From a virus, in the IMG/VR virus record IMGVR_UViG_3300030099_000821, positions 1-20,344 of that record: 20,344 nucleotides of DNA. One strand, given 5' to 3'. A program made the position numbers and the translations under genes. Each line of letters begins with the position of its first letter. The stretch's first letter is position 1. Shown in pieces: positions 1,126-20,344 of the stretch. The notes beneath the pieces were generated by a model that was not told the DNA's origin, searched no databases, and saw only the letters and a list, made by a program, of their open reading frames with translations.

Positions 1126-1541
1126 GCTTCAAATACTTCTTCCGCTTCACAGGTAAGACTATAAAATTCGTCGTACGCATATTGTTTATTATAGTTGCTA
1201 ATTACAACTTTTACAGTCTCTTCCCCATCAACAGAATTAGGTATTGTTAGTTGACAAGTGCTGACACTTGCTAAAGTATTGAAAAATTTATAAAGTTTAT
1301 CTATATCATCATTTGTTCTATTGGCAAATGAAAGTGCCCATTTTCTAGGGGTATTGTTTATTCCATCAACCATTCTTAGTTGATAGCCGTCTCCAAACTG
1401 AGCTTTAATAACTCTTGGAGCTGCACTTTGTTGAGCACCCTTATCAAACATTACAGGAGCACTAAATCCTGTTATATTTGTACCTGCGGATACTGTGCCT
1501 CCACCTGTTTGTACTGTGTTTGTTGTTATTCCTGTTGCCAT
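1122..1541 (-). CDS. M: Minor tail protein M (tail tip)
   Basis: A 139-residue protein of the lambda gpM family, a tail-tip component added between tape measure and gpL. The diagnostic stretch is RVIKAQFGDGYQLRM (about residues 43-57), matching the family pattern R.V.FGDGY.QR, followed by a beta-rich body with W.L.F at 68-72 and a C-terminal SLTCEAEEVFE resembling the lambda end (FSAEFEQV). The N-terminal 35 residues are Gly/Thr-rich and extra compared with lambda gpM (109 residues). The start ATG shares a base with the tape-measure stop (TAATG) and the stop overlaps the gpL start (ATGA), so the three genes are translationally coupled. The gene order tape measure-M-L is the same as in lambda. 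Confidence 0.88.
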   Translation of the reverse strand: MATGITTNTVQTGGGTVSAGTNITGFSAPVMFDKGAQQSAAPRVIKAQFGDGYQLRMVDGINNTPRKWALSFANRTNDDIDKLYKFFNTLASVSTCQLTIPNSVDGEETVKVVISNYNKQYAYDEFYSLTCEAEEVFEA

Positions 1542-4500
1542 TAGCCTCTACCTCTACCACCACTAGAATTTAATATTCCACCTGGTCTCATTTCTTCTTG
1601 TAATTTTTGTTGTACTAAGTTTCCAATCTGTCTACCCATTCCTGCTAGTGCTCCGTCGCCTACTGTATTTGTTTGAGCGCCTCCACCTTGCATATTTACT
1701 GTGACATTTACAATATTAGTACCACCTTCTCCCATCATCTTTACAGGTATGCTTCTATCATTTCCAAGAGGAACAACAGCTTCTCTTCCGTGTAGCTTTG
1801 CCATATAACCAGACTCAGGGCCGTCTGCTACACCTCCATGAGCATAAGATCTTTCTCCACCATACCTATCTCCGCTTCCTAATCCCATTAAGTCTGTGAA
1901 GCCTCCGCCTGACCCCATGCCAGGGAAGAAAGCCATCATAGCTTTTAGGGCTGCAGCTCTCATAAACATAGAGGCTAAGTCCATAAGTACTTGTTTTGTT
2001 AAATCTTTCATAGAATCTTTAAAAGATTTAGTTCCGTCTATCATAGCTTGGAACATATTTTGGAAACCATTTGAAAGAGTATCTTTTATACCATTCATAA
2101 GTTCAGTTTCTATTTTAAGCAATTCCATTGTTTCAAACTGCTTTTGAAGACCCTCAAGTTCTTTTTCAGTAAACTCAACTCCTAACTTTTTCTGTTCTGA
2201 TACAAATTGATGGTAAGCAGCTGAAGCAGGATTTATAGAGCCTATGTGCTCTCTTGCTATCTCTAACTCCTCTTGCATAATCTTGAGTTTTTGTCTAGCA
2301 ACATCTCCGCTTTCAATATCCTCTAGCATGACTTTCTTTACGGTCTCCATGTTTATTTGCTGTGTGAGACTGAGTTCTGTTTGTTTTAATTGGTTAAATT
2401 TCTTTTGTGTTTCTGTTAAGTCACCTGTAAACATACCGGTGGCTGCATTAAAATTACTTGCAGTTGTATCTGCTTTAAGATTAGTTATTTGACTTCCTAT
2501 ATTCTCCTTTTGAAGTTCAAGATTGCTAATAGTACTTTTGTGCCTACCTATTTGATTTCGTCTTTGTGTTGCTACTATTCCACCTGCTCCAAATTGAGAC
2601 ATTCCTGCAAATTGGCCTCCACCTACAGCTGCATCTCTTTTTTCTTGTAATCTTGCAAGTGCCATTTCATCTTTTAAAACTTTTTCTTGTTGTTTTAAAA
2701 CTTCCATCTTAGGCTCTAATTCAAAAAGTTTTTCTTTTATATCAAGTTTTTCTCTAAGCAAATCGTTTTGGAATTTTATAATATCTGCTTCAGTGTTTGC
2801 GTTCTCTACTGCTGCCGCTGAGGCTTCTACTTCAGTAGTACTAAGATTATTTTTTACTAAAGCGTCCTTAAGAGCTTCTTTATCCATATTTAAAACATCT
2901 TGTTTCTTAAATAATAACTTTCCTTGCTCATCTTCTAACGCTATTAAAATACCTCTTTGTTTTTCTAAAACAGCTTTTTCAGCAAGCTCTGCTGCCATGA
3001 TATCACTTTTAGCTTTATTTTCTTTATCTGTAAGCATAAGCCTATCATTTGCTATTCCCTGTTTTGTTCTCTCTAGTCCTACCTCTTCTACAAGTATTCT
3101 TTGTTGTTCTTTTCTATTATTAAGAGTATCCTGTACATTTTTTAGACCAAATTGTTGTAAAGCATTTACATCACTTTCTAATGCTTTTTGCTGTCTTAGT
3201 GTTTCCTCTTTAAATGCAATAACTTTTTCATCATCTTCAGTTTGTTTTTGAATAGCTGCAATGTCTTCTCGAATCTTTTTCTCTTCATGGTACTGCCCCA
3301 TCATTCTTTCATAAATTCTAGAGCCTTCTTTATGACCGCTTGCAATAATAGCGTTAATCATTTCTACTTCGCTAAGTAGTTCTCCTGCTTGGTTTTCCAT
3401 GCTTAAGACTGTGTTACTAAATTGAGCACCTGACGAAGAGCTATAGACTTGCTTACTACTATCTAGTCGTAACTTAGCTATTTGCGCTCCTCTAATCTTT
3501 CTTTGTTCAGCAAGTTGTCCTTTTAATCCGAATCGGTCAATTGTTTGATTTCCTTTTTCATCTACACCTAAACCTAGTTCTGCTTCTAAATCTGAGATAC
3601 TTGCTGAAAAAGCTGTTTTTAAGTCTTGGAAAGGAAGCTGTTTAAATTTACGTATTTGTTTATCAAGTGTTTTATTTAATGTTTCTTGGTTTTGAGAGAA
3701 TCTTTTTGAAGCTGCAGCAGCATTTTGATATCCATTAGCAAGACTAGTAAATTCTGATACCATAGCCGCTGTAATTGGTAATCCCTCTTGTATTCTACTA
3801 TTTAATTTGGCTAGGCCGGGAGCAACAATTTCTAAACTATCTCCCATTTTTCTAGCTTCCTTCATAAAGTCGCTATTCTTATCTGTACCTTTTGCAATTT
3901 CTTTATTATATTGTTGGATTCTTTTATTTAAGTCAGCACTACTGAGAGCATTACCAGATTGTTCTACCATTTGACTAATACCTAGTAACCCTGGAGCTTC
4001 TCTGACTTCTGCCATTTTGCTTAGTTCACTATTTAGTTGTTGAAACTCTTCTGTAGATTTCTTTGTTTCTTCTCTAAGTTTTTTAGCAGTCTCATCTAAG
4101 TCTCTAAAAAAGTTTATTAACGATGCAACTGCCTGTATTATCATAAAGACAATACCAATAATACCAGCTGCCATCATAGCTCTATTCATTGCTTTGGCTG
4201 CAAAAGCTGTGGCTCTAGTCATAGCTGTCATGGTAGCTTGATAAACCATTTGTGTACCTTTATAAGCAGCTCTCTTCATATTTTCAGTAGCCTGTACAAT
4301 AGATCTCTGCTTTGTACTAGAGCCTTGTAACATTGCGTCTTGTGCATTTAAGTGGTTTCTAAACGCTCTTCTTTCTTGAGCGTTCATCTTCATGTAGATA
4401 CCTTTCTTTTCACGCATCATACGTCTGTATGCGGCTACTTGTCGTTTACTGAGAGTTTCTTCGTTTTTTCCACTAAATTTCTTTACGCCTAAATCTTGGA

Positions 4501-5575
4501 GTCCTTTCTTAGAACTTGCTGCATCTACTGGGCCTCCTGCAAAGGCATCTCCTACTCCTTGTATAGATGCTTTAAATTCAGAGGCATCTGCTATAGCTTG
4601 TTTCTTATGGTCTTTAAACTTTGAAAGTGAATCAGCGGCTGCCTTGTTCATATCTGGCAGTAGTGATTTAATAATTGGAGTAACAAATAAACCTACAGCA
4701 GCTATAAGTGCCATAGAGTTTTCTTTGAAAAAGTTGATAATTGGAATTAGTCCTTCAATGATGAACTTTTGGAATCCCATGAGTAGGTCGTCCATCTCTT
4801 TTTGGAACTGACCTAATGCGAATGCATCTGGATCCATTATTTTTTGGATTGCTCCAAATTTAACTTCTGCCTGCCCTACAACATCATTTAAAACAGCTTG
4901 TGTTCTCTCAAACGCATTTAATTGTTCTCTTGTTTTTCCGATAGAAACAGCATACTTTGTAGTTGCATTTTCTAATCTCAAAACAATACCAAGTTCGTCC
5001 AAGAGTTCTGGCTCTGCTTTCGTAACACCACGAACAAGCCTGTTAAAAGAGTCTGTCAAGTCTCTACCAAGAGCAAGTGAAGCATCAGTTGCCGCTTTAC
5101 CTAATTGTTCCATTTGACTAGCACTTAGTCCAGAAGCGATACCAATAGCAGCTCCCTGTGCGGCAGTTTTAAAGTCTAGCATACCTTGAGTAGCGTCTTG
5201 AATATTAGTTGTCAAAGTTCTATATGCAGTACCCGTAACTGCTCCAAAAGCTTCTTGTGCAGCCATAAGGTTACGGGTCTCCATTGAAGACTTTAAGAAT
5301 TGGAATGCGGCAGTAAGCGCAAAGACCTGCGCTGCGATAGTTGCATAGACTTGAACAAGACCACCTTGCATGGTCGCCATCTTTGCAAATTCTTTAGTAC
5401 TGTTTGATGACTGCTGGGTTACACCTTTTATCGCACGGTCAGTATTTTGAGCAGCTCGACCAGTCTTATTTAAATTCTTCGCTAGTTTTTCTGCTTCTTT
5501 ACCTGTGACTTTAAAAGAACCACCATCGGTGGTTTTGATAATAATCTCAGCAGCTTGTATTTTCTTTTTTGCCAT
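1541..5575 (-). CDS. H: Tail length tape measure protein
   Basis: A 1344-residue tape measure, the longest gene in the window, which sets tail length and is expelled during DNA injection. Evidence: size, position directly after the G/GT chaperones and before M, long stretches of charged alpha-helix, and hydrophobic segments at about 73-92, 271-305 and 467-490. The C-terminal part has the pattern typical of lambda-like tape measures: a helical hydrophobic stretch (LTKQVLMDLASMFMRAAALK), a Gly-rich patch, then AHGGVADGPESG and LHGREAVVPLGNDRSIPV. At the usual rough ratio of about 1.5 angstrom per residue the tail would be about 200 nm, implying a siphovirus. No peptidase or lysozyme motif was found. 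The stop of the upstream T frame directly abuts this ATG (TAAATG), so initiation probably relies on coupling; the upstream AAAGG is a poor ribosome site. Confidence 0.95.
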   Translation of the reverse strand: MAKKKIQAAEIIIKTTDGGSFKVTGKEAEKLAKNLNKTGRAAQNTDRAIKGVTQQSSNSTKEFAKMATMQGGLVQVYATIAAQVFALTAAFQFLKSSMETRNLMAAQEAFGAVTGTAYRTLTTNIQDATQGMLDFKTAAQGAAIGIASGLSASQMEQLGKAATDASLALGRDLTDSFNRLVRGVTKAEPELLDELGIVLRLENATTKYAVSIGKTREQLNAFERTQAVLNDVVGQAEVKFGAIQKIMDPDAFALGQFQKEMDDLLMGFQKFIIEGLIPIINFFKENSMALIAAVGLFVTPIIKSLLPDMNKAAADSLSKFKDHKKQAIADASEFKASIQGVGDAFAGGPVDAASSKKGLQDLGVKKFSGKNEETLSKRQVAAYRRMMREKKGIYMKMNAQERRAFRNHLNAQDAMLQGSSTKQRSIVQATENMKRAAYKGTQMVYQATMTAMTRATAFAAKAMNRAMMAAGIIGIVFMIIQAVASLINFFRDLDETAKKLREETKKSTEEFQQLNSELSKMAEVREAPGLLGISQMVEQSGNALSSADLNKRIQQYNKEIAKGTDKNSDFMKEARKMGDSLEIVAPGLAKLNSRIQEGLPITAAMVSEFTSLANGYQNAAAASKRFSQNQETLNKTLDKQIRKFKQLPFQDLKTAFSASISDLEAELGLGVDEKGNQTIDRFGLKGQLAEQRKIRGAQIAKLRLDSSKQVYSSSSGAQFSNTVLSMENQAGELLSEVEMINAIIASGHKEGSRIYERMMGQYHEEKKIREDIAAIQKQTEDDEKVIAFKEETLRQQKALESDVNALQQFGLKNVQDTLNNRKEQQRILVEEVGLERTKQGIANDRLMLTDKENKAKSDIMAAELAEKAVLEKQRGILIALEDEQGKLLFKKQDVLNMDKEALKDALVKNNLSTTEVEASAAAVENANTEADIIKFQNDLLREKLDIKEKLFELEPKMEVLKQQEKVLKDEMALARLQEKRDAAVGGGQFAGMSQFGAGGIVATQRRNQIGRHKSTISNLELQKENIGSQITNLKADTTASNFNAATGMFTGDLTETQKKFNQLKQTELSLTQQINMETVKKVMLEDIESGDVARQKLKIMQEELEIAREHIGSINPASAAYHQFVSEQKKLGVEFTEKELEGLQKQFETMELLKIETELMNGIKDTLSNGFQNMFQAMIDGTKSFKDSMKDLTKQVLMDLASMFMRAAALKAMMAFFPGMGSGGGFTDLMGLGSGDRYGGERSYAHGGVADGPESGYMAKLHGREAVVPLGNDRSIPVKMMGEGGTNIVNVTVNMQGGGAQTNTVGDGALAGMGRQIGNLVQQKLQEEMRPGGILNSSGGRGRG

Positions 5576-7741: not shown

Positions 7742-8206
7742 CTAGTATTGAATCTCTGCGACGACTTCTCCGACACCGAGAGGTTCTAATACACCTTCGT
7801 CTGTATCCACAGAAAGAATTGTAGTCTTTACTGTCGTTTGAGACGTACCTGTTGAATCTGTATACGTTAAAGGATCGTTATCTTCAAGTACAGTTTCAAC
7901 ATCTTCTAGTAACTCTTCTAATGCTAGTATTACATCATCTTCATCATGTATATAACATCTAACAGTTACTCGTAAAAATCTAAATCGAAACCCGCCACCT
8001 TCATATTCGCGAGTTTCTTGTCCTGCTCCAACTTGGATTGCGGGAAAGTCTGTGACTTCGTCCCAAAATCTAAGTCTTGGCTCAACGCTTTGAACCGCTG
8101 TTCTAAAAGGAGGATTGCCGTCCAAACTTTGGTTTAGTTTCTCGGCTATTGCTCCTACTATGGCTCGTCTACGCGTTGAATATTTTCTTGCTGTAGTTGA
8201 GTCCAT
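7742..8206 (-). CDS. Tail terminator-like protein
   Basis: A 154-residue protein, probably the tail terminator that caps the tube and joins it to the head (the gpU/gp17 role). Supporting features: position directly before the tube protein gene, size, an N-terminal basic helix (ARKYSTRRRAIVGAIAEKL), a central strand run (DFPAIQVGAG, FRFRFLRVTVRCYI), a helix ALEELLEDVETVLEDN, and a terminal strand GEVVAEIQY, the alpha/beta pattern of this family. Its ATG shares a base with the upstream stop (TAATG), preceded by AGGAG at 6 bases. The name rests on synteny and predicted fold. Confidence 0.68.
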   Translation of the reverse strand: MDSTTARKYSTRRRAIVGAIAEKLNQSLDGNPPFRTAVQSVEPRLRFWDEVTDFPAIQVGAGQETREYEGGGFRFRFLRVTVRCYIHDEDDVILALEELLEDVETVLEDNDPLTYTDSTGTSQTTVKTTILSVDTDEGVLEPLGVGEVVAEIQY

Positions 8207-9753
8207 TATTGTCTCCTAAGTGTTGTCGGCTGTCTTCCCAGTATTCCCATAGCAAGTTCTCTAATACTTGCTCCTATTATTTTTCGAGGGTCTCTTAAAG
8301 TACTCCCCTGTTTTCCACCTGGCTCAAAAGTTTCATAAGGATTTCTCATATAAGTATAGTCTATATGCAATCCACCTCTTGAACCTATATTTACATTCTC
8401 AATTCTAGTTGAGTTTGCAAACCTACCAGTTCTATATTGTAGTGCTGGCGGTGTCATTTTACTTGCTACCATTTGTGGTAGTGCTTCATTAAGTATGTTT
8501 CTCAAAGCTATTGGGCTTTCTATTGTTCTTGATACACCTTTTTTATTTGAGTTTGGTCTACCTTTTCGTACTTTTTGCGTTTTAGCTTTAGTACTAGCAA
8601 CAACTGCGGTTTTAATTGCCTCATTTATATCAAAACCACCTTGACCCCTTTTCTTGCCTTTTGCTTTTTTTGCTTGTGCAAGTAGTTTTTTATTAACTTT
8701 TAATCTAAAGTCAGGTCTTGTTCCCTTTACCTTTAGAAGACTTTCAATAAGTTTTCCTTGTACTATTTTTGTTGCTTTAGTATTAAAACTATCGGAACCT
8801 TGTAAAGCTCCTCCTTCTTCTGCAACCTCATCTTTACTAGCCCCTAAAAACTTTATAAACTTGTCTGTTTCGTCTTTTGCAGCTCTTTTTATTCCGTCTG
8901 CATCTGCCCAGTTCATTTCTCTATTTAAACGAGCGTCTCCATATTCAACAGTAACAGAAATCTCTCTAGTTCCTGATGCTGAGGTAAAGTCTTGTATATC
9001 TTTTACCTTATACTTTTTCTTTATTGGATTAAATATCTGAGTTACAGCTTGGTCCATTAACCAACCATCTTCAGGATACTCTTCCCTAAAGTTTCTGTCA
9101 AAGTTTTTTACAGCGTCATCAAAACCAGCTCCTTCTCCTCCACCCTCTGCTAATACTTGTTTGGCAATCGTAGTTTGAAAGCCTCCTTTAGCAGAAGTGT
9201 CTCCATGAAGTCTTGCACCTGCATGAGGTGGAGACCTAAATCTTTCAGGAACCTGGCTACCTACCAAATCTAATCCTAGGTTTCTTCTCTTGCCCATTTC
9301 TGTCTTAATAACAGATATAGCTTCAAACCATAAATCTTGCATCGCCATGTTAGTCTTTGGTATCAAGTTACCTCGTGATGTAGCTACTTTTTCAGCGTAT
9401 TTACCTCGCATGAAAACTACTTGTACCATACCTCCGACACCTTTACTAACAAATATGCCACCACTTTTACCAGTAGAGCCATAGTATCTTCTAAAGGCTC
9501 TTTTAACATTGGGTATAGTATACACCTTGTTCCAAACACTAGTTTTTACTATATTAGCAATTGTAGTCTTACTAGCTGGTGGTAGTCCTGCGTCATGTCT
9601 AGCTTGTATAACTCTGTCGACTATCATATTTACTAAGTTCTTTTGTTTTATTAGGAACTTATGTTCATATGTAGCATCAGAATGAGCTCTAGCCATATCA
9701 ATGTTGGATTTCTCCATCATTCGTTTAAAAAAGTTTTCTACATCTTGAATCAT
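8206..9753 (-). CDS. Neck/tail-completion candidate, unusually long
   Basis: A 515-residue protein between the head-tail adaptor and the tail terminator, where head-closure or HK97 gp10-like tail-completion proteins (usually 100-200 residues) are found. The last 80 residues look like that family: YRTGRFANSTRIENV at about 439-453, then beta strands with HIDYTYMRNPYETFEPGG and a final helix with DPRKIIGASIRELAMGIL. The first 350 residues are not recognised: a helical N-terminus, a Gly-rich piece near 100-120, and a region near 160-280 with many charged residues. Residues about 355-405 are strongly basic (KKAKGKKRGQGG, KAKTQKVRKGRPNSNKK). It overlaps the upstream adaptor stop by four bases (ATGA). 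The extra N-terminal domain could be a fused head-completion protein or an internal/ejected protein; I cannot tell. Confidence 0.5.
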   Translation of the reverse strand: MIQDVENFFKRMMEKSNIDMARAHSDATYEHKFLIKQKNLVNMIVDRVIQARHDAGLPPASKTTIANIVKTSVWNKVYTIPNVKRAFRRYYGSTGKSGGIFVSKGVGGMVQVVFMRGKYAEKVATSRGNLIPKTNMAMQDLWFEAISVIKTEMGKRRNLGLDLVGSQVPERFRSPPHAGARLHGDTSAKGGFQTTIAKQVLAEGGGEGAGFDDAVKNFDRNFREEYPEDGWLMDQAVTQIFNPIKKKYKVKDIQDFTSASGTREISVTVEYGDARLNREMNWADADGIKRAAKDETDKFIKFLGASKDEVAEEGGALQGSDSFNTKATKIVQGKLIESLLKVKGTRPDFRLKVNKKLLAQAKKAKGKKRGQGGFDINEAIKTAVVASTKAKTQKVRKGRPNSNKKGVSRTIESPIALRNILNEALPQMVASKMTPPALQYRTGRFANSTRIENVNIGSRGGLHIDYTYMRNPYETFEPGGKQGSTLRDPRKIIGASIRELAMGILGRQPTTLRRQ

Positions 9754-10400: not shown

Positions 10401-12446
10401 TTAGCTAGCTTTATACATATAACCCCACTTAGAAGTTGCACCATCGATTAGGTCTGTGAAACCTATTCTTTGAGAAGCCACTAGGACTCGTCTTTGGTTA
10501 GCTACTTCGTAGTCTGATTCGATTGTAACACCTCTTAATCTAGGCATTACGAAGTTCATTGGGTTAACAGCTATTGCTGCGAACTTACCAACTGCTGGTG
10601 TAGCGAATTCGTCACATAATAGTACTCTTGATCCGAATACCTGTCCGATTTCACCAGATAGCTTAGTTGCCATGTCGCCAACTAGGTTAGCATCTTGGAA
10701 CTCAGCATCTTCTAGCAATTCAAAGTAAGATCTTTGTGATACGATATAAACCACATCTGCTGGGTTAATACCATATTTACCCATGTTCTTTCTCATTGAA
10801 AGTAATTCAGCAGCTGTCAAAGTATCAGATGCGAAAGCAGTTGTACTTTGTGTGAAGTCTGAATCATTTCTTGCTAGGTGTAATAAACCTTCGAAAGAAG
10901 CACCTGAGGTACCGAAAGCACCATCAGCATCATCACCAGCTAAGATAGCATTTTCTATTGCTCTTGCATGAGATCTAACGATAGATTCTCTGATAAGCGG
11001 TAGAATTGGCATGATTGCATCTTCTTCAGTTTCATTACCTAAGTATGATTGTGAAATAAGTTTTTTGGTTGAAAGAGTTCTTTCAGTTAAATCAACCCCA
11101 CCAAATGGCGAACCATAGGTGTCTCCTCTTTCAGCTAAGTTACCATGTGGTGAAGAACCACTTGCTGTTTGCCCTGAAGCAAACTCAGCGTAACCTGCAT
11201 CTGGAAGGATTGGGATAATCATGTTTGCTGAAGTCATTGGAATTTCTCTGAATAGAGGAGCCAAGACTAGCTCGTTTTGAATATCTCTTTCGACGTTTGT
11301 TGAAACGATTTGCTCGAAGTCAGCAGAAGATACTTGAACACCTGAATGTTCGTTCACTTTTTGCATAACGCCTTTTGCATAATCTGTTTCGTAACCTTTA
11401 CCAGTAGCAAGACCTAGAATCTTAGCATCAAGAATGTCTCCTTGAAATGCTTCTTTCCAGTCTTTGTTGCCTCTGTCTGCAAAGATTCTTTTGGATTCTC
11501 TGATTGACATAATTTCTTCAGATTTTTCTGCTAATTCTTTTTCAAGAGATTTAACAACTGTTTCTAAATCTTCATGCTTCTCATTGACACGTTTTTCAAC
11601 GTCTTCCATAAGTTTCTCAGCACCTGACAACCCACTTGCAACGATTTTCTTTTGTTTTTCCATTTCAGCTTGCTCTTCAGCTTGCTTAGCTTCTGCTTCT
11701 GCTTGTGCCTTTTCGTCGGCTTCAGCTTGTGCTTTTGCTTCAGCAGCTTTTTGCTCAGCTTGTTTCATTGCGATGGAAGCGGCAGTTTTTTCCGCAACTT
11801 CTTTAGCGAATGTTTCCAAGTCGAACTCAGGGCTTGCTTCAGGAGTTTTTACATCTTCTGACATTTTCGTCTCCGTTTTGTCGGCTATTGCCTCGCTTGA
11901 CTGCTCAATCTTAGCGTCTGCTCCAATTGAGTTAGTCTGAATAAAGTCTTGTTTAAACTTGTTGTACTCTTCCATATTGTCAAATGACTTCGCAATAGAG
12001 AAGACAGCGTTTTGGTTACAGGGAACCGAAACTACTGACACTTCGAACAGTTCAGCGTCCTTTATCTTATATCCGTCGGTTTCGGTCATATATTCAGCGT
12101 CCTTGACCTTGAAACCGACACTAAAGGCTCCAAGAACGCCGTCTTTAATAAGATCTTTTATTTCGTTGGCGGATTTAGAAATACGGGCTGTAATATCTAA
12201 ACCGTTTTCACCAACACTAAGTTCTTTTGCACGACCAATAGGTCTGTCATAGTTGTGATTAAACAATATAACTGGATTATTTTTAAAATTTTCTAATCCA
12301 CCTTTTGTCCATGCATCATGTTCAATTATATCGCCAGCTCTGTCGACAGCATTTGTACTAGCACTTCCTTTGATGTCTAGTCCACCGTCGTCGTCTTCGC
12401 CAAGCATTTTGAACGAGTTTGTCCAATGAAATATTTTCTCAGACAT
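10401..12446 (-). CDS. Prohead protease-scaffold-major capsid fusion protein
   Basis: One 681-residue polypeptide with three parts. Residues about 20-155 are an HK97-type prohead protease (S78/U35): IKGSASTNAVDRAGDIIEHD (25-44), NPVILFNHNYDRPIGRAKEL with likely catalytic His64, GAFSVGFKV with likely nucleophile Ser109, and ELFEVSVVSVPCNQNA (132-147). Residues about 205-320 are Ala/Glu/Lys-rich coiled coil, the place of the HK97 delta/scaffold domain. Residues about 325-681 are the HK97-fold capsid: DFEQIVSTNVERDIQNELVL, REIPMTSANMIIPI, a long E-loop region (about 416-465), ENAILAGDDADGAFGTSG and a C-terminal P/A domain. The ribosome site is excellent (AGGAGG, 7 bases upstream). In HK97 protease and capsid are separate genes; here self-cleavage must release mature capsid. 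An internal start at codon 195 may supply protease-free capsid. A strong hairpin follows the gene. Confidence 0.93.
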   Translation of the reverse strand: MSEKIFHWTNSFKMLGEDDDGGLDIKGSASTNAVDRAGDIIEHDAWTKGGLENFKNNPVILFNHNYDRPIGRAKELSVGENGLDITARISKSANEIKDLIKDGVLGAFSVGFKVKDAEYMTETDGYKIKDAELFEVSVVSVPCNQNAVFSIAKSFDNMEEYNKFKQDFIQTNSIGADAKIEQSSEAIADKTETKMSEDVKTPEASPEFDLETFAKEVAEKTAASIAMKQAEQKAAEAKAQAEADEKAQAEAEAKQAEEQAEMEKQKKIVASGLSGAEKLMEDVEKRVNEKHEDLETVVKSLEKELAEKSEEIMSIRESKRIFADRGNKDWKEAFQGDILDAKILGLATGKGYETDYAKGVMQKVNEHSGVQVSSADFEQIVSTNVERDIQNELVLAPLFREIPMTSANMIIPILPDAGYAEFASGQTASGSSPHGNLAERGDTYGSPFGGVDLTERTLSTKKLISQSYLGNETEEDAIMPILPLIRESIVRSHARAIENAILAGDDADGAFGTSGASFEGLLHLARNDSDFTQSTTAFASDTLTAAELLSMRKNMGKYGINPADVVYIVSQRSYFELLEDAEFQDANLVGDMATKLSGEIGQVFGSRVLLCDEFATPAVGKFAAIAVNPMNFVMPRLRGVTIESDYEVANQRRVLVASQRIGFTDLIDGATSKWGYMYKAS
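11862..11874 (-). promoter_or_regulatory. Internal ribosome site and ATG inside protease-capsid gene
   Basis: GGAG (11874-11871), six bases of spacer, then in-frame ATG (11864-11862) = Met195 of the fusion. It lies between the protease and coiled-coil domains; initiation here would give a 487-residue scaffold-capsid product (10401-11864) lacking the protease. The arrangement is like nested scaffold genes (lambda C/Nu3). Spacing and sequence are as good as at many real starts in this window; use in vivo is inferred. Confidence 0.55.
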
Positions 12447-12448
12447 AG

Positions 12449-12700
12449 TTATTCCTCCTTAACTTCTGCCTCAACCTTTTTAGCAGCTTTAGGTTTTGGT
12501 GCAGGAGCTACTTCGACTTCCACAGGAAATCTATGTAGTGCAGCGGCAACAACTCTATTCCAAGAGCCAAACTTTCTCCTTAAAAGATAGTCCCTTACAG
12601 GAGCTTTCTCGTCCGCTTTATAATCTGATAGGCTTACGTAGTCTACATTCTTTGCTGCCATGTATTCTGATAAAGCCTTTAGCATCATGTTTTTTGTCAT
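12449..12700 (-). CDS. Small protein with HNH-associated-repeat-like motif
   Basis: An 83-residue protein between portal and protease-capsid. Residues about 6-55 resemble a single copy of the repeat found beside homing endonuclease domains: a helix (MLKALSEYMAAKNVD), SLSDYKADEKAPVRDYLL and the signature RRKFGSWNRVVAAAL (41-55), compared with the remembered family pattern ..RFGSWNEALRAAGL. That repeat is thought to be a small helical DNA-binding module. The C-terminal third is low complexity Pro/Ala/Lys/Glu (APAPKPKAAKKVEAEVKEE). The start overlaps the portal stop (ATGA). Its function in head assembly is unknown; it might be a DNA-binding helper for packaging, or a remnant of an HNH element. 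Confidence 0.6.
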   Translation of the reverse strand: MTKNMMLKALSEYMAAKNVDYVSLSDYKADEKAPVRDYLLRRKFGSWNRVVAAALHRFPVEVEVAPAPKPKAAKKVEAEVKEE

Positions 12701-13920
12701 AATTCTTCCTCTGCGGGTGGGGTTTCTTGCGGTCTGCCACCTTCCTCTGGATTTGCGGCTGAACCTGCGATATTTGCAGGAACTCGCGGTTGATCAAATC
12801 CGTCAATCTTCTCAAATCTCAACGCCTCCCTTGCCTCATTCGGTGTTAATATTCCCGTATTTACAAGTGTGGCGTAATAAGAAGCCTGATCTTTTAGTTC
12901 GGGCTGAAGTGCAGGCACATTGCTTACATCTTCATTCAGTTTAAAACCGAAGAACCTCTCGAAAGCATACGCTATCTTTCTTGTGATAGGTAGTATGGTT
13001 TCTAAATAATATAGTCGATGATTTGGGCGAATATTCGCATTGTTACCACCGTCCAATATAATGGGTGGTATACCCATTGCTTCTAGGATTATTCTTTCAT
13101 TTGACTTTATTGCCTCTTGAAAGTCTAACTCTTTGAAGCTTACTTCCGTTAAGTTTTCTACTTCAAGTCCGCCATCTAAGAAAAGAGGACGTCTACCACC
13201 AGATTGTGGGTTGTAACGGGCAACCCATGCTTGTAACATTCTTTCTTTAATTTTCTCAGAAAGAGTGTTTGGTGATTTAAGTACTAAGCCTGGTACGGCT
13301 CCGTTCTTGAAGAAGTTATCTTGAAAACGCCTCATACTTAACAATAGTTGCATTGTTCTGAACGCGGGTTTTAATCTAGGAACTCCACGATAAATGGAAT
13401 TAAATGAATTTTCTTTTATGTGAATAATCTCACTAGGAGAATATTCTATGCTGTGGTCATATGTGAACTTTTCTATGTAAGTTCTTTCATTACTTTCGAT
13501 TGTAACTCTGTCTGCTGGTAGATGGTACAAGTGAGCACCATCAAAGTAAACAAAAATGTTACCATCAAGCATTAAATCTGTTACTAAATTTCTTTTGAAA
13601 GTATTTATATCTTGAAAAGGATTTGGTTCTCTATTCAGTAATAAATCTACTTTCGATTTTCTAACATTTTTAAAAATGCTAGTTTGTCCTTTTAAGGTTT
13701 CGCCTACATCAAAAGGTATATCCGATGAGTCGTCCACTATCATGTTGACTGCTCGGTTTACAACTTCTAATTGTTCATAGGCGTGCCTGTAATTCGTGAT
13801 TACTTCACGGGAACTTATTGTTCCACCTTCGTCACCCGCAATAAGATATTGAGAAGGATTTAGTTTTTCCTCCTCATCTATATTAGGTTGTCGACCTATA
13901 AATCTGTCATACCATGCCAT
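12697..13920 (-). CDS. Portal protein (HK97 family)
   Basis: A 407-residue portal, the dodecameric ring at the capsid vertex through which DNA is packaged and to which the adaptor binds. Family marks: N-terminal MAWYDRFIGR, then YRHAYEQLEVVNRAVNMIVD (45-64), YSPSEIIHIKENSFNSIYRG (about 155-174), MLQAWVARYNPQSGGRRPLF, LDFQEAIKSNERIILEAMGI then PPIILDGGNNANIRPNHRLY (the conserved helix-loop before the crown), and ERFFGFKLN. Near the C-terminus, LTPNEAREALRFEKIDG is the usual portal LT.NE.R...GL-like motif. Length is close to the HK97 portal (419). It overlaps the HNH gene by 14 bases at its 5' end and the next gene by four bases at its 3' end. Confidence 0.95.
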   Translation of the reverse strand: MAWYDRFIGRQPNIDEEEKLNPSQYLIAGDEGGTISSREVITNYRHAYEQLEVVNRAVNMIVDDSSDIPFDVGETLKGQTSIFKNVRKSKVDLLLNREPNPFQDINTFKRNLVTDLMLDGNIFVYFDGAHLYHLPADRVTIESNERTYIEKFTYDHSIEYSPSEIIHIKENSFNSIYRGVPRLKPAFRTMQLLLSMRRFQDNFFKNGAVPGLVLKSPNTLSEKIKERMLQAWVARYNPQSGGRRPLFLDGGLEVENLTEVSFKELDFQEAIKSNERIILEAMGIPPIILDGGNNANIRPNHRLYYLETILPITRKIAYAFERFFGFKLNEDVSNVPALQPELKDQASYYATLVNTGILTPNEAREALRFEKIDGFDQPRVPANIAGSAANPEEGGRPQETPPAEEEL

Positions 13921-14297: not shown

Positions 14298-14326
14298 ATT
14301 ATACATAACTTTGGGTTCAATGTCAA
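14298..14326 (-). promoter_or_regulatory. Sigma70-type promoter P2 (before HNH-portal-capsid)
   Basis: TTGACA (14326-14321), 17-bp spacer, TATAAT (14303-14298): both hexamers match the sigma70 consensus exactly. It sits in the 72-bp gap between terminase stop and HNH start. Expected transcription start is near 14291, giving a short leader. The -35 lies within an 18-bp block shared with promoter P1. Confidence 0.87.
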
Positions 14327-14337
14327 GAACTATTTTT
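14320..14337 (-). repeat. 18-bp promoter repeat, copy 2
   Basis: AAAAATAGTTCTTGACAT on the transcribed strand, identical to 19125-19142. It covers the -35 hexamer and eleven A/T-rich bases upstream. Beyond it the two spacers differ, so the shared part is upstream and -35 only. It could be an UP element or a binding site for a phage regulator. Confidence 0.85.
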
Positions 14338-14350
14338 GGTACGGTGGTCA

Positions 14351-15649
14351 TTAGAACGTTGTCGCCGTGGTCTCGAACGAATACAACGCATATCGTAGTG
14401 CGTCTGCCATATGTGATGCATAGTTATGCACTGGTTTCTCTTTCAATAAATTGGGGTTTGGATCCCACTGGTATTGGTCAAGTGAGAGTAGTGATTCTTT
14501 ACACCTTTGATCAACTATAAGTTTATCATTATCACAGATCGCTGCTACATGACCAATGCCATCTAGAACTGATTTCTTTGCGTTGATAGTAGTAATATCA
14601 TAGTTTTGTGCAAAGTCGAACCTCGTTTGTTGTGCAGCAGAATCAATATAAATATAATCAATAGCCCATTTATTGATTAAATCTCTAATTTTTTCTGCGT
14701 GTTGTTCAGTTGTTCTTTCTGCATCTAAGTACTCATCTAGTAAGTAGTATTTATCTGCGTCCCAATCATAACCTATAACACAGAAAGCTGTAGGGTCTTT
14801 ATAACCCACGTCCATTCCTGCGAATATATCCATTTTACTAGTATCTAATTCGACTAAATCAGAAACACATTCTTCATGCTTAAAGCCCCATACCTGGCCT
14901 TCGTAAGTATTGAAGTCTGCCATATACTCTTGATTAAATTCAGCTTCAGACATGGTCTTTCTAGCTTCTTGTATATCTTCTTCAGATATTCTAGGATTCT
15001 CATGATAGGTAGCTTTTACACTTGCCCACTCTGGGAACTGGTCTGAATATCCTCTTTGAAAAAACTCTGCAAACCAATTATTTCTACCACGCGGTGTAGA
15101 AATAAATAATGCTTTTGAGTTGTCTTTATCTAGTGTAGGTCGTAGTGCAACATTAAACGCATCACGTCCGTCGACAAGTGCCGCTTCATCAAAAATGATG
15201 AGGTCATAGGAGCGACCAACGACTGAATCCACTTGATTAACCGAGCCCATACGTATTGTAGAATGGTTCGAAAGTTCAATAACTTTATCTTTTGCATTAT
15301 CTCTAAGTACCTCCAAATCAAAATGTTTAATTAGACTTCTTTGTAAATCAAAAGAAATCTGGGAAAGTGAGTAGTTAGGTGACATAAGTAAAACATTGCT
15401 ATTCGGAACAAGACACACGAGTTGTCCTATCACGTTTGCAATATATGTTTTACCTTGTCTACGAGAAACTGCGGCAGTAACAAAACGATACTTCGGATTG
15501 TTCATGCAGTTTATAATTGAATTTTGAGTTGTGTTAGGTTCGATACCTAATAACTCCATGTATGAATTTATAGGAAGCTTGATGAATCTATCTTCATCAA
15601 AGGTCATGAGAAACTTGCTTTCTACATCAGTTCTACTGGTTTCTAGCAT
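14351..15649 (-). CDS. terL: Terminase large subunit (packaging ATPase-nuclease)
   Basis: A 432-residue large terminase with both domains. ATPase: the deviant Walker A SRRQGKT (62-68) typical of terminases, Walker B LIIFDEAA (150-157, Asp154/Glu155), and the coupling motif STPRGRNNWF (184-193). Nuclease (RNase H fold): GMDVGYKDP with Asp280, YIYIDSAAQQ with Asp336, and HMADALRYALYSF with Asp416, the three metal-binding acidic residues. It pumps DNA into the prohead through the portal and cuts concatemers. The ATG shares a base with the stop of the 74-residue gene upstream (TAATG). No standard small terminase is recognised next to it. The stop TAA is followed after 13 bp by the repeat and promoter P2. 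Confidence 0.96.
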   Translation of the reverse strand: MLETSRTDVESKFLMTFDEDRFIKLPINSYMELLGIEPNTTQNSIINCMNNPKYRFVTAAVSRRQGKTYIANVIGQLVCLVPNSNVLLMSPNYSLSQISFDLQRSLIKHFDLEVLRDNAKDKVIELSNHSTIRMGSVNQVDSVVGRSYDLIIFDEAALVDGRDAFNVALRPTLDKDNSKALFISTPRGRNNWFAEFFQRGYSDQFPEWASVKATYHENPRISEEDIQEARKTMSEAEFNQEYMADFNTYEGQVWGFKHEECVSDLVELDTSKMDIFAGMDVGYKDPTAFCVIGYDWDADKYYLLDEYLDAERTTEQHAEKIRDLINKWAIDYIYIDSAAQQTRFDFAQNYDITTINAKKSVLDGIGHVAAICDNDKLIVDQRCKESLLSLDQYQWDPNPNLLKEKPVHNYASHMADALRYALYSFETTATTF

Positions 15650-16908: not shown

Positions 16909-17199
16909 CTACCATTTAACTTTGTTTGCCCAATATGCGGCAGACAATTTTCCCTTTGCTATGTTTCTACGGTGTCTCGCTTTAAAAGAACGTCTTTTTG
17001 CTTTCATTCGCGCTGACTCTCCCTTCTTAGGTTTCCCCGCAGTTTTAGCACCTTGCTGTCCAAATCGGATAGTCTTAATTTTATTTCCTACTTTGGCAAC
17101 GACAATGTGTGACTTTTTAGGGTGATTAGGTGTCCTTTTTGGTTTGTTATAACCTTTAACGCCTGCTCTTTTTAGTCTTGGATCTCTTTTTCTTGGCAT
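16909..17199 (-). CDS. Cationic small protein (RHRRNIAKGKLSAAYWANKVKW type)
   Basis: A 96-residue very basic protein. The N-terminus is MPRKRDPRLKRAGVKGYNKP; the middle has HIVVAKVGNKIKTIRFGQQG, a small beta pair; the end RSFKARHRRNIAKGK, then LSAAYWANKVKW, is a conserved terminus I remember from several marine phages, with no known function. A GGAG is found eight bases before ATG. Its first 44 bases overlap the end of the upstream cationic gene in another frame. With its beta pair and ordered C-terminus it is not just low-complexity sequence, so a folded nucleic-acid- or virion-binding protein is plausible. Confidence 0.72.
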   Translation of the reverse strand: MPRKRDPRLKRAGVKGYNKPKRTPNHPKKSHIVVAKVGNKIKTIRFGQQGAKTAGKPKKGESARMKAKRRSFKARHRRNIAKGKLSAAYWANKVKW

Positions 17200-17485
17200 T
17201 GTTTGCTCTCCGTAAACCTGCTTTTGCAGATTTAAAAATTGATGCGACTGTCTTCTTTCCCATCACTTTTGCTCGTTGTTCTCCAACTGTTAATATTTGT
17301 ATCTTTCTTGCATAAGACTTACGAACCCGTTTTACTTTTCGTACAGTTGCTCTGGCATCTTTTGCAGTAGCAAACTTGATTCTGACAGTATCCTTTGGGT
17401 TTTCGTCAGTATAAAGTCTTCTTCCAGACCCTTTAGGTTTTTTACCTGTTCCTTTTTTTGGATCTCTTCTTTTTCTTCTTACCAT
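17156..17485 (-). CDS. Cationic small protein, beta-alpha core
   Basis: A 109-residue protein with basic tails (MVRRKRRDPKKGTGKKPKGS at the start; KKKRSKTKKSRR at the end) around a core RRLYTDENPKDTVRIKFATA (21-40), DARATVRKVKRVRKSYARKI and QILTVGEQRAKVMGKKTVAS, probably strand-helix-strand-helix. Function unknown. No clear ribosome site; its ATG lies inside the upstream 50-residue gene, with 44 bp of overlap in another frame, so coupling is likely. The overlap encodes basic peptides in both frames because it is a purine-rich run. Confidence 0.68.
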   Translation of the reverse strand: MVRRKRRDPKKGTGKKPKGSGRRLYTDENPKDTVRIKFATAKDARATVRKVKRVRKSYARKIQILTVGEQRAKVMGKKTVASIFKSAKAGLRRANNAKKKRSKTKKSRR

Positions 17486-17594
17486 AGCCTGATGCGTATA
17501 TCGCCCTGCCTTGGCGTTCTGCAGCTTTCTTCGTTTTGTAAATCTTTCCAGACTTACCCCAACGATAACCGCCTTTAACGCGTCTTACGGGCAC
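17442..17594 (-). CDS. Cationic 50-residue protein (GGYRWGKSGK type), GTG start
   Basis: A 50-residue protein read from GTG at 17594 (frame start MPVRRVKGGYRWGKSGKIYK), with AGGAG five bases upstream. A longer frame open from ATG 17660 exists but its extra part (LMFVLLLKEKEEQQ) is unlike the rest and lies inside the upstream gene, so I prefer the GTG. The core GGYRWGKSGK.Y....AAERQG followed by RAIYASGYGKKKKKRSKK is a pattern I remember as widespread in small phage proteins of unknown function. The 5' end overlaps the previous gene by 20 bases. Confidence 0.75.
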   Translation of the reverse strand: MPVRRVKGGYRWGKSGKIYKTKKAAERQGRAIYASGYGKKKKKRSKKRNR

Positions 17595-17874
17595 GACGTC
17601 TCCTTGTTGTTCTTCTTTTTCTTTTAGTAAAAGTACGAACATTAGTTGGTTTACCACCAACTCCTTGTTTCCTTGCTCTCTTCCTACGAACGGCTGAAGC
17701 TATTTGTTTCTTTGACATTCGTCTAGCTTTTGCGGCTGGTACACATTTAGGGTAGCCACCTTTTCCTGCTTTCTTTCTTCCGCATTTGTGGTATCCGCCA
17801 CCTTTTTTAGGTCTTGAGATATCTACCCAGTTCTGCTTAAACCATTTACCTAATCCGCCTCTAGCCTTAGCCAC
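17575..17874 (-). CDS. Cationic small protein with Cys motif (WVDISRPKKGGG...YPKCVP), GTG start
   Basis: A 99-residue protein from GTG (17874-17872), GGGAG eight bases upstream. Residues about 5-50 form a compact motif: GGLGKWFKQNWVDISRPKKG (6-25), GGYHKCGRKKAGKGGYPKCV (26-45) with Cys31 and Cys44, then AAKARRMSKKQIASAVRRKR and KQGVGGKPTNV. I remember this motif in proteins of phages and bacteria that have only a DUF-type name. The last 25 residues are almost pure Arg/Lys/Thr (KRKRRTTRRRRARKTR), protamine-like. It overlaps its neighbours by 8 and 20 bases. Confidence 0.75.
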   Translation of the reverse strand: MAKARGGLGKWFKQNWVDISRPKKGGGYHKCGRKKAGKGGYPKCVPAAKARRMSKKQIASAVRRKRARKQGVGGKPTNVRTFTKRKRRTTRRRRARKTR

Positions 17875-18055
17875 GTCTATATCTCCCGCCTCGCTTCTTG
17901 TATTCTCTTACAAGCCAAGCGTTCGCATACGCTGAAGGATAAACTGCAAACTTTCTTCTAGCAGCAGCTTTGACTCTAGCATATAAAGCTTTATTAGTAG
18001 GAATATTTCTTTTTGCTTTAGTGCTTCTTCGAGCCTTCCTTCTTTTTCTAGCCAT
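17867..18055 (-). CDS. Cationic small protein (YPSAYANAWLVREYKKRGG type)
   Basis: A 62-residue protein. A basic N-terminus (MARKRRKARRSTKAKRN) precedes a likely folded part IPTNKALYARVKAAARRKFA (18-37), VYPSAYANAWLVREYKKRGG (38-57). This latter part is a conserved motif that I remember from phage and bacterial small proteins of unknown function. The ATG shares a base with the upstream stop (TAATG) and AGGTAGGAAG precedes it. Confidence 0.75.
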   Translation of the reverse strand: MARKRRKARRSTKAKRNIPTNKALYARVKAAARRKFAVYPSAYANAWLVREYKKRGGRYRRG

Positions 18056-18237
18056 TATCTTCCTACCTTTCTCTGTGCCGCTTTGTGCGCCTGGGTAAAT
18101 GTTTTACCTTGTAGCATTAGTCGTCTCATCATAGCCATATGCTTTCTAGTATGATGTTTAGCATGACGTCTCATAGTTGCTTGTTGACGTTTAGTAAGAG
18201 TTTTTCTTTTGGTTTTTCTTTTTCGTCTAACAGCCAT
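18055..18237 (-). CDS. Cationic His/Met-rich small protein
   Basis: A 60-residue protein with 22 Lys/Arg, 5 His and 6 Met: MAVRRKRKTKRKTLTKRQQA, TMRRHAKHHTRKHMAMMRRL, MLQGKTFTQAHKAAQRKVGR. The middle is probably a single amphipathic helix, with all His and Met on a limited stretch. Strong ribosome site (AGGAGG, 4 bases before the ATG). Function unknown; the composition suits DNA or RNA binding, and the His cluster could bind metal. Confidence 0.75.
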   Translation of the reverse strand: MAVRRKRKTKRKTLTKRQQATMRRHAKHHTRKHMAMMRRLMLQGKTFTQAHKAAQRKVGR

Positions 18238-18316
18238 GATGCCTCCTCATGCTTTTGCGTTTCTTCCTGCCACCTTTTTTCTTTTTCTTCTTTTTAGGTT
18301 TGTAATGATATGGCAT
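18227..18316 (-). CDS. Very short Lys-rich protein (29 residues)
   Basis: A 29-residue frame, ATG 18316-18314 sharing a base with the upstream stop (TAATG) and ending TAG 18229-18227, overlapping the next start. It reads MPYHYKPKKKKKKKGG and so on, ending MRRHHGC; 11 Lys and 4 Arg out of 29. AGAGG is about eight bases before the ATG. I remember similar MPYHY...KKKK small proteins in marine phages. Short but well coupled and with the same composition as its neighbours, so probably real. Confidence 0.55.
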   Translation of the reverse strand: MPYHYKPKKKKKKKGGRKKRKSMRRHHGC

Positions 18317-18480
18317 TATTTTCTACCTCTCAACTTCCGTAAAATTGCTTGTTGCAATTTCTTTGGCAATCTTTTTTGAGCGGCTGTCAAACCTTTTCTC
18401 TTTTTCTTACCGTTCTTTCTTTTCTTGCTTTTCATCGGACGGCCTCTTCTTTTGCCGTACGTTCCTTTACCTGATGGCAT
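18316..18480 (-). CDS. Cationic 54-residue protein (MPSGKGTYG type)
   Basis: A 54-residue protein, MPSGKGTYGKRRGRPMKSKK then a Lys/Arg run, then LTAAQKRLPKKLQQAILRKL. 24 of 54 residues are Lys or Arg. Both ends are patterned rather than random: the N-terminal GKGTYG.+.GRP and the C-terminal LPKKLQQAIL recall a small protein widespread in marine phages. GGAG lies six bases before the ATG. Function unknown; GRP is reminiscent of AT-hook minor-groove binding (here RGRPM), which would be consistent with DNA condensation but is only an idea. Confidence 0.68.
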   Translation of the reverse strand: MPSGKGTYGKRRGRPMKSKKRKNGKKKRKGLTAAQKRLPKKLQQAILRKLRGRK

Positions 18481-18828: not shown

Positions 18829-19059
18829 CTATGGGTGCATTTGCCACATTGAATATATGACCCCAGCACCTCCCACAATGATTGTGCCTGCAACACTTAT
18901 TAGTATTGTCTCAATTCGTGTTATTGATGATTCAACACCGTCAAACCGTTTAGCAGACCTCCCTTCAATACCTTGGAGCTGATTAAATACAGTTTTCCAG
19001 CGCTCTTCACAAATGGCTTCGTGCTTTTTTAACTCGGCACTTAGTTCTTCGACTTCCAT
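18829..19059 (-). CDS. Coiled-coil plus membrane-helix protein, XhlA/holin-like
   Basis: A 76-residue protein, first gene after promoter P1. Residues 1-50 are charged helix (MEVEELSAELKKHEAICEER, WKTVFNQLQGIEGRSAKRFD), then a membrane segment at about 50-72 (ETILISVAGTIIVGGAGVIY), ending SMWQMHP. The layout (soluble coiled coil, C-terminal membrane helix) and the motif KKHEAICEERWK recall XhlA-type hemolysin or holin-accessory proteins. A role in lysis is thus possible but is not shown by the sequence. GGAG precedes the ATG, which lies about 35 bases after the expected transcription start. Confidence 0.6.
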   Translation of the reverse strand: MEVEELSAELKKHEAICEERWKTVFNQLQGIEGRSAKRFDGVESSITRIETILISVAGTIIVGGAGVIYSMWQMHP

Positions 19060-19102: not shown

Positions 19103-19131
19103 ATTATACCAAAATTACAGGGTCATGTCAA
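19103..19131 (-). promoter_or_regulatory. Sigma70-type promoter P1 (late operon start)
   Basis: TTGACA (19131-19126), 17-bp spacer, TATAAT (19108-19103), both exact consensus. It is just downstream of the adenylate cyclase stop (TAG 19137-19135) and reads into the small-gene operon and terminase. Expected start near 19096. The upstream 18-bp block is identical to that of P2. Confidence 0.87.
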
Positions 19132-19142
19132 GAACTATTTTT
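19125..19142 (-). repeat. 18-bp promoter repeat, copy 1 (covers cyclase stop codon)
   Basis: AAAAATAGTTCTTGACAT, identical to 14320-14337. Here the block includes the last Lys codon and TAG stop of the adenylate cyclase. Two exact copies with both -35 hexamers in register are unlikely by chance and suggest common origin or shared regulation. Confidence 0.85.
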
Positions 19143-20344
19143 CGATGGTATAAATTTTAACTGGTTCAGACTTTCCTTTCACCGTGACCTCGTCTAAGAA
19201 CTTATAGTCGAATCCGTCGACCATGCTGTACTCTGATATTATAAGATCGGTGTCATAGGTTTTACAAGATGATTCAAGTCTAGCAGCGAGATTAACAGCG
19301 TCGCCGAGAACACTATAATCAAAGCGACTATTACTACCCATATTACCGACAACACACGGTCCTGTATTGATTCCGACTCCAGTATTGATTTCAGGGCTTC
19401 CTTCATTCCTGAGAACATCATTTAACTCCTCTAAAGCTACTCTCATCTCGAGAGCGCACTCTGTGGCTTTTCTTTCTTGGTCTTCGACATCGAGAGGTGC
19501 GTTCCAAAAAGCCATGATGCAGTCTCCCATGTATTTATCTATTGTTCCCTCGTGTTTGAGTATGATATCAGTCTGATTAGTTAAAAAACGATTAACCAGT
19601 TCCACTAATTTTTGTGGGTCAGACTGATAAAATTCTGAAATCGGGGTGAAACCTCGGATATCAGAAAAAAGGAAAGTCATTCGTTTTGTCACCCCACCCA
19701 ATCTCAGTAATTTTGGATTATTTTGGAGTATTTCTACTTGGGCAGGGCTAACATACGTCCCAAATTGTTGTTTAATCTGTAATCTCAACAAATATTGAGT
19801 AATAAAACTATGAAATTGTACAATACTCCAGAATAAAAACAGGATAACTAGCGTGCCAGAAACGTCAAATAAGTAGGAAGACTCAACAAGCTTCCAAGAA
19901 GCGAAGCCAGTACCTCCTAATAGTGCTAAAATGACGGGTAGGCTGAGCCAAATGTTGTTAGCTACAGCCATAATTAGTACCATTCCGATAAGTATGATAC
20001 CAAGTTCTGCTAAAAAGCTCCAAGATGGCTGTGAAAGAGGCTCTCCGCTGATTAAAGTGTTAAGAACTGTTGCCTGAACTTCGTGAGGATACTTTGGACC
20101 GCCTGGAGTTGCTACAAGAGGAGCCACTCCCTCTGCAGTCACACCAAAAATCACAAATGGTGCCGGGATTGGCTCCTTCATGTATTCGGCTGCTGTCTGT
20201 CTGTAAAATTTTGTGTTCCAATTTGCAAATACAAGACCGTTTTCATTAGTAGTCAACTTACCATAAGCTGGTATTCGTACCCACTCGACTCCAGTCTCTT
20301 CAGTTTTTATCTGATAGCTTGGGTCTCCAACCGCAAGTCGTAAC
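19135..20344 (-). CDS. CHASE2-type membrane class III adenylate cyclase, 5' end cut by window
   Basis: About 402 residues visible; the frame stays open to the right edge, so the true start is outside (TTG at 20256 is internal). Order: the end of an extracytoplasmic CHASE2 sensor (GDPSYQIKTEETGVEWVRIP, FVIFGVTAEGVAP, TPGGPKYPHEVQA), three membrane helices at about 108-129, 130-149 and 161-180 of the visible part, a linker, then a class III cyclase domain. Catalytic marks: FSDIRGFT (metal Asp at 19662-19660), DKYMGDCIMAFW (second metal Asp; Lys that reads adenine), and VLGDAVNLAARLES (adenine-reading Asp, transition-state Asn and Arg). The Lys/Asp pair indicates ATP, hence cAMP. All key residues are present. 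C+G and codon use look higher and different from the phage genes, so it is likely a bacterial gene next to a prophage; a phage-carried cyclase is the alternative. Confidence 0.92.
   Translation of the reverse strand, partial: LRLAVGDPSYQIKTEETGVEWVRIPAYGKLTTNENGLVFANWNTKFYRQTAAEYMKEPIPAPFVIFGVTAEGVAPLVATPGGPKYPHEVQATVLNTLISGEPLSQPSWSFLAELGIILIGMVLIMAVANNIWLSLPVILALLGGTGFASWKLVESSYLFDVSGTLVILFLFWSIVQFHSFITQYLLRLQIKQQFGTYVSPAQVEILQNNPKLLRLGGVTKRMTFLFSDIRGFTPISEFYQSDPQKLVELVNRFLTNQTDIILKHEGTIDKYMGDCIMAFWNAPLDVEDQERKATECALEMRVALEELNDVLRNEGSPEINTGVGINTGPCVVGNMGSNSRFDYSVLGDAVNLAARLESSCKTYDTDLIISEYSMVDGFDYKFLDEVTVKGKSEPVKIYTIEK

Follow-up and report, generated by a model that had tools for sequence, protein, structure and literature searches.

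A predicted membrane adenylate cyclase closes the curli-export cluster of marine T5-like siphoviruses and overlaps a promoter of the late genes

Where the gene for a membrane-bound adenylate cyclase (AC) abuts the late genes of a phage, two quite different readings of the junction are available: that it marks the edge of a prophage, the cyclase being a flanking host gene, or that the phage itself carries the cyclase, which raises the question of what such an enzyme contributes to infection. We report the analysis of one such junction in a stretch of 20,344 bp that is the whole of one linear IMG/VR record (the window). Its relevant features are as follows:

19135 to 20343, minus strand: 3' two-thirds of a gene for a CHASE2 and class III adenylate cyclase (open reading frame, Pfam, phrog_35576)
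19125 to 19142, minus strand: 18-bp block AAAAATAGTTCTTGACAT, a conserved motif holding the last Lys codon, the TAG stop, an A-rich upstream element and the -35 box
19103 to 19131, minus strand: promoter TTGACA-N17-TATAAT, with TGn ahead of the -10, directed into the late genes (68/72 junctions)
18829 to 19059, minus strand: first gene past the junction, 76 amino acids with a C-terminal membrane helix (directly after the AC in 20/21 long loci)
14351 to 15649, minus strand: terminase, large subunit (T5-like, at about 50% identity)
14320 to 14337, minus strand: exact repeat of the 18-bp block, just past the large terminase gene (repeat search)
14298 to 14326, minus strand: second perfect promoter, between the large terminase gene and the gene preceding the portal (motif search)
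12697 to 13920, minus strand: portal protein (T5-like, at about 40% identity)
10401 to 12446, minus strand: fused prohead protease and major capsid protein, T5-like (about 39% identity)
8206 to 9753, minus strand: protein whose C-terminal part matches the T5 tail completion protein p143 (similarity)
1541 to 5575, minus strand: tape measure protein of a long-tailed phage, T5-like (similarity)

An earlier note on this DNA took the cyclase to be intact, which it is not: the reading frame stays open up to the contig end, and the record stops inside the gene with 402 of about 589 amino acids present, the full-length relatives having 589-597. What is present matches the Pfam family Guanylate_cyc (4e-22), the final 100 positions only of CHASE2 (2e-05) and phrog_35576 (1e-118), and ends in a TAG stop codon at 19135-19137 on the minus strand. 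A scan of viral contigs with this partial protein gave at least 599 relatives, the best among the matches listed being full-length and 93-94% identical to it. The dN/dS of the window AC against relatives is 0.09-0.16 and, by this comparison of sequences, the gene is evolving under purifying selection.

The genes beyond the junction identify the phage. Terminase, portal, capsid and tape measure genes of T5-like type share one late region and are related to those of the T5-like phages (Demerecviridae), and on this gene content, from which the genes and their promoter are also called late, the phage is an uncultured marine T5-like siphovirus. Genomes of T5-like phages have some 110-130 kb and long terminal repeats; the window is a 20-kb fragment, and the longest related record, which is linear, has 88 kb. 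No match to the AC was found in the cultured T5-like phages of the collection searched.

What lies upstream of the cyclase was read from relatives 88-94% identical to the window in the AC, using parts of two of them (L002 and L005) as queries and counting a locus as long when over 6.5 kb of it lies upstream of the AC. All 21 long loci hold, in the same order, two membrane proteins of about 95 amino acids, CsgF, CsgG, a curlin-like protein, FecR and the AC. Of these loci 16 also have NifU and 17 have IscA, while the small terminase is present in 19 and a second curlin-like protein in 12. The full order is small terminase, NifU, IscA, the two small membrane proteins, CsgF, CsgG, curlin-like protein, FecR, (second curlin-like protein), CHASE2-AC, promoter and late genes. 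In L002 the corresponding domain matches are CsgG (8e-49), CsgF (1e-12), Curlin_rpt (4e-05) and FecR (9e-09). CsgG, CsgF and a curlin-like protein thus occur together in 21/21 long relatives, as does the arrangement of FecR, then (curlin and) AC at the 3' end, while the record of the window ends before them. The AC and a T5-like terminase lie on one strand, 1.3-5.5 kb apart, in 110 loci, and among loci fetched by the terminase alone and having more than 6.2 kb upstream, the AC is present in 16 of 17. Judged from these sequences, the AC is almost certainly the last gene of a phage curli (type VIII secretion) cluster carried by a marine T5-like siphovirus.

One relative lacks the cluster. L239, an 18.9-kb contig of a SAR86-order genome, has a terminase 77%, a portal 65% and a small terminase 64% identical to the queries. 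In it the small-terminase gene and the start of the gene found elsewhere after the AC overlap, and the curli cluster and AC are missing. This is a natural empty site, and the cluster is thus an optional module set exactly between two late genes; the second promoter may offset its length. At the same position, ahead of the first late gene, L091:1-475 holds a protein that is not an AC and looks by eye like one of oxygenase type, which makes the site that separates the small terminase from the late genes a possible hot spot for additional genes.

The alternative that the junction is a prophage edge can therefore be judged by the test which the earlier note had itself proposed, namely what lies beyond the cyclase. 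In related contigs this is the small terminase and the curli cluster and not host chromosome; phage genes continue beyond the AC in all long relatives, in which it stands between the small terminase and the late genes, so that the proposal of a phage-carried cyclase is borne out and that of a host flank falls. In a quick tree with long branches, moreover, 67 phage ACs form a single clade separate from 57 bacterial ACs (SH-aLRT 100). The comparison of base composition and codon use, also proposed in that note, does set the AC somewhat apart, with a GC3 of 0.36 where the late genes have 0.22-0.30 and a codon correlation of 0.77 where they have 0.82-0.90, and is the one observation in favour of a host gene, but the host-gene reading still fails and we regard it as practically eliminated.

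That the stop codon of the cyclase sits in the same 18-bp block as the -35 box, as had been noticed, holds on inspection of the sequence at 19125-19142. The block reads ATGTCAAGAACTATTTTT on the plus strand and occurs in identical copies at 19125-19142 and 14320-14337; perfect TTGACA-N17-TATAAT promoters are found twice in the window against 0.02 expected from shuffles. In 68 of 72 distinct related junctions the -35 begins exactly 3 nt past the AC stop, with 11-12 of 12 consensus positions, and the stop itself is TAG as well as TAA. A chimeric assembly is ruled out, since the junction recurs in 72 distinct sequences from many metagenomes. As far as sequence can tell, the coincidence of stop codon and promoter is far beyond chance, and the promoter is predicted to be a strong one of sigma70 type. 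The motif AAAAATA.TTC followed by TTGACa-N17-TATAAT is also found ahead of the small terminase and past the large terminase, with 269 occurrences in the sense orientation and 39 in the opposite one. Its A-rich part is thus also present where a promoter lies clear of any stop codon, which suggests that the promoter constrains the last codons and stop of the AC rather than the reverse.

The catalytic residues of the cyclase are well preserved. In an alignment of 51 sequences (41 ACs from viral contigs and 10 from bacteria) the residues D415, D461, K457, N538 and R542, in the numbering of L002, are invariant, and the window AC has the same catalytic motifs when aligned with its full-length relatives. 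We take Asp415 and Asp461 to bind metal, Lys457 to specify adenine and Asn538 and Arg542 to act on the transition state, which is the complete set expected of a class III adenylate cyclase. The phage AC, keeping all of these, probably makes cAMP from ATP during infection. In the full-length L002 protein CHASE2 extends over residues 11-310 (5e-29), and a structure model (pLDDT 89) has helices at residues 2-17, 296-314, 318-341 and 349-381, giving a layout in which a transmembrane helix is followed by a domain of CHASE2 size, three more helices and then a cyclase domain that resembles CyaB and CyaC, in sequence as well as in fold. An N-terminal helix, an extracytoplasmic CHASE2 domain and further helices are the components of a CHASE2 receptor.

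What such a receptor might sense is suggested by its neighbour. The model of the phage FecR has modest confidence (pLDDT 69) and gives weak fold matches, the best being the PupR cell-surface signalling domain (5.8e-4), with a resemblance over 61 columns to a cell-surface anchoring domain. Bacterial loci, of Alphaproteobacteria such as Bradyrhizobium and Afipia and of some marine MAGs, encode a CHASE2-AC about 35% identical to that of the phage over its full length, and here too a gene with a FecR domain often lies directly upstream: it ends no more than 600 nt before the AC in 26 of 76 loci, while more than half of the loci tested gave no FecR match. These loci differ from the phage cluster in that, in several, FecR is fused to cadherin, RTX or Ig repeats, and in that no CsgG, CsgF or curlin was found near the bacterial FecR-AC loci. 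The shared pairing suggests that FecR and CHASE2 together act as a sensor in the periplasm that is coupled to surface-fibre export.

We propose the following sequence of events. During infection CsgG and CsgF would export the curlin-like subunits; FecR and the CHASE2 domain of the AC, both periplasmic, would sense this export, or the state of the envelope; the AC, as a membrane-anchored homodimer, would then turn ATP into cAMP. This cAMP would act through host receptors, as no phage-encoded cAMP receptor (PF00027) was found in 14 long related phage records, mostly incomplete, and a cNMP-binding protein is present in 8 of 8 marine genomes tested, among them five from the SAR86 group; a change in host cAMP control by the phage AC is plausible. 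Finally, the promoter fused to the AC stop would restore full transcription of the head and tail genes past the inserted cluster of about 7-8 kb. To this explanation as a whole we give a probability of roughly two in three; the particular step from FecR to the AC is tentative, and we would not put it at even odds.

Three other explanations of the cyclase compete with this one. The AC could be mainly an auxiliary metabolic gene, whose constitutive cAMP drives CRP-type regulators of the host and hence its carbon and energy metabolism, with FecR and curli as co-inherited neighbours; the intact catalytic residues agree with this, as does the presence of cNMP-binding proteins in candidate hosts and not in the phage records. 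The CHASE2 domain is, however, kept in full, the AC lies inside the curli cluster in every long relative, and FecR precedes the AC not just in phages but also in one in three of the bacterial loci tested, which makes sensing look like a selected property, so that we consider a purely metabolic role possible but unlikely. A catalytically idle cyclase, retained because it serves the curli apparatus as membrane anchor or sensor scaffold, is brought to mind by the homologue in phage Melnitz, which has Ser where the transition-state Asn is expected, and is made highly improbable by the invariance of the five key residues in viral and bacterial sequences alike and by the dN/dS values given above. 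Less credible still is a role in mimicking, flooding or decoying a cyclic-nucleotide defence such as Pycsar, although the earlier note had proposed a response to phage-defence nucleotide signals and models of PycC match the cyclase domain, down to 5e-29. These matches are limited to the class III catalytic core that the two enzymes have in common; the PDB relatives of the phage AC are ordinary adenylate and guanylate cyclases, its adenine-type Lys is kept, it differs from Pycsar in having a CHASE2 sensor, and the neighbours scanned are curli, FecR and iron-sulphur genes, with no effector of Pycsar type (PycTM/PycTIR) among the AC neighbours scanned in relatives. The proposal thus finds no support.

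The host of the curli-bearing phage is possibly SAR86. Relatives of its terminase at 75-76% identity occur in 2 of 203 SAR86-order genomes, on binned contigs, and none was found in the 385 alphaproteobacterial or 369 gammaproteobacterial genomes sampled; the best match of the phage IscU, at 62%, is in a SAR86-order MAG, which is suggestive.

Phage curli clusters ending in FecR and AC have already been published. CsgF and CsgG were described in pelagimyophages (PMC7029224). A later description of the full cluster, FecR and AC included, came from HTVC023P-type podophages and from myophages, and transfer between viral families was proposed for it together with roles in superinfection defence, sibling capture or import (PMC9599517); for the cluster of phage Melnitz a role in lysis was proposed (PMC9004378). 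The environmental hits of the second study were all assigned to myo- or podophages by best match (PMC9599517), and T5-like copies may have been counted among them. Like the T5-like cluster, that of HTVC023P-type podophages and pelagimyophages has CsgF, CsgG, CsgA/B-like protein, FecR, often a second CsgA/B, and AC in conserved order (PMC9599517), and both are without CsgC, CsgD and CsgE. The T5-like cluster differs from these, which are reported from podo- and myophages only, in its siphovirus setting, between the small terminase and the late genes, in being usually fronted by NifU and IscA and in having its end fused to a promoter. Pelagibacter phage HTVC008M (KC465899) and Methylophilales phage Melnitz (MZ577096) have the same gene order (PMC7029224, PMC9004378) and ACs 34-41% identical to the phage AC, but are T4-like kyanoviruses; in these the genes slightly past the AC are reversed and hence there is no promoter junction from AC to late operon, the coupling being a feature of the T5-like lineage. 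We found no report of a curli cluster in T5-like marine phages in the open-access literature, subscription papers lying outside the scope of the search, and nothing in the literature on phage adenylate cyclases as a topic of their own, the AC appearing under curli.

New here are the third phage lineage, the iron-sulphur genes, the fixed overlap of AC stop and promoter, and the FecR-CHASE2-AC pairing found also in bacterial adhesin loci. A T5-like lineage, its possible host SAR86 being abundant and hard to culture, joins the phages with a complete curli-export cluster and a membrane cyclase of their own; relatives that carry the cluster, and others that lack it at the same site, make its role directly testable; the pairing beside bacterial adhesin-like genes suggests what the cyclase senses; and the overlap of stop codon and promoter offers a clear case of a captured cluster being wired into phage late transcription. 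It is conceivable, if doubtful, that FecR and CHASE2-AC form a checkpoint of general use, by which the export of surface fibres or giant adhesins is signalled inward as cAMP. Bacteria would use it with FecR-fused adhesins; several unrelated marine phage lineages would have captured it together with a curli exporter, so as to remodel infected cells in both surface and physiology; and in the T5-like lineage it would be hard-wired to the late genes by the promoter over the AC stop.

Several smaller observations concern the surroundings of the cluster. The two proteins of about 93-97 amino acids ahead of CsgF belong to phrog_18771, have one membrane helix and a coiled-coil-like tail and matched no Pfam family; the pair at L002:2484-3064 and a like pair of membrane proteins in HTVC008M (L154:2332-2894) are 41-43% identical. 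A 'histidine kinase' has been reported at this position (PMC9599517), a label that is doubtful, as about 93-97 amino acids are too few for a kinase. The genes for a NifU-like scaffold and an IscA-like carrier ahead of the cluster (L002:1722-2484, L005:2087-2855) would make up a phage iron-sulphur assembly pair adjoining FecR, possibly with a link to iron supply. Between the junction and the large terminase the window encodes a run of small, very Lys/Arg-rich proteins (16909-18480, minus strand), those tested having no Pfam match; the run is also found in relatives, where some copies precede the AC (e.g. L045:6864-7434). At the small-terminase promoter of relatives, about 15 nt upstream of the -35, there is a palindrome, GCATCAT.ATGATGC (e.g. 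L037:1748-1808, L062:1734-1794, L069:2011-2071), which is absent from the promoter at the AC stop. It has the symmetric variants GCATCGT.ACGATGC and TATCATAATGATA, often has AAAAGACGC in front of it, and is possibly an operator, or a terminator, between early and late genes.
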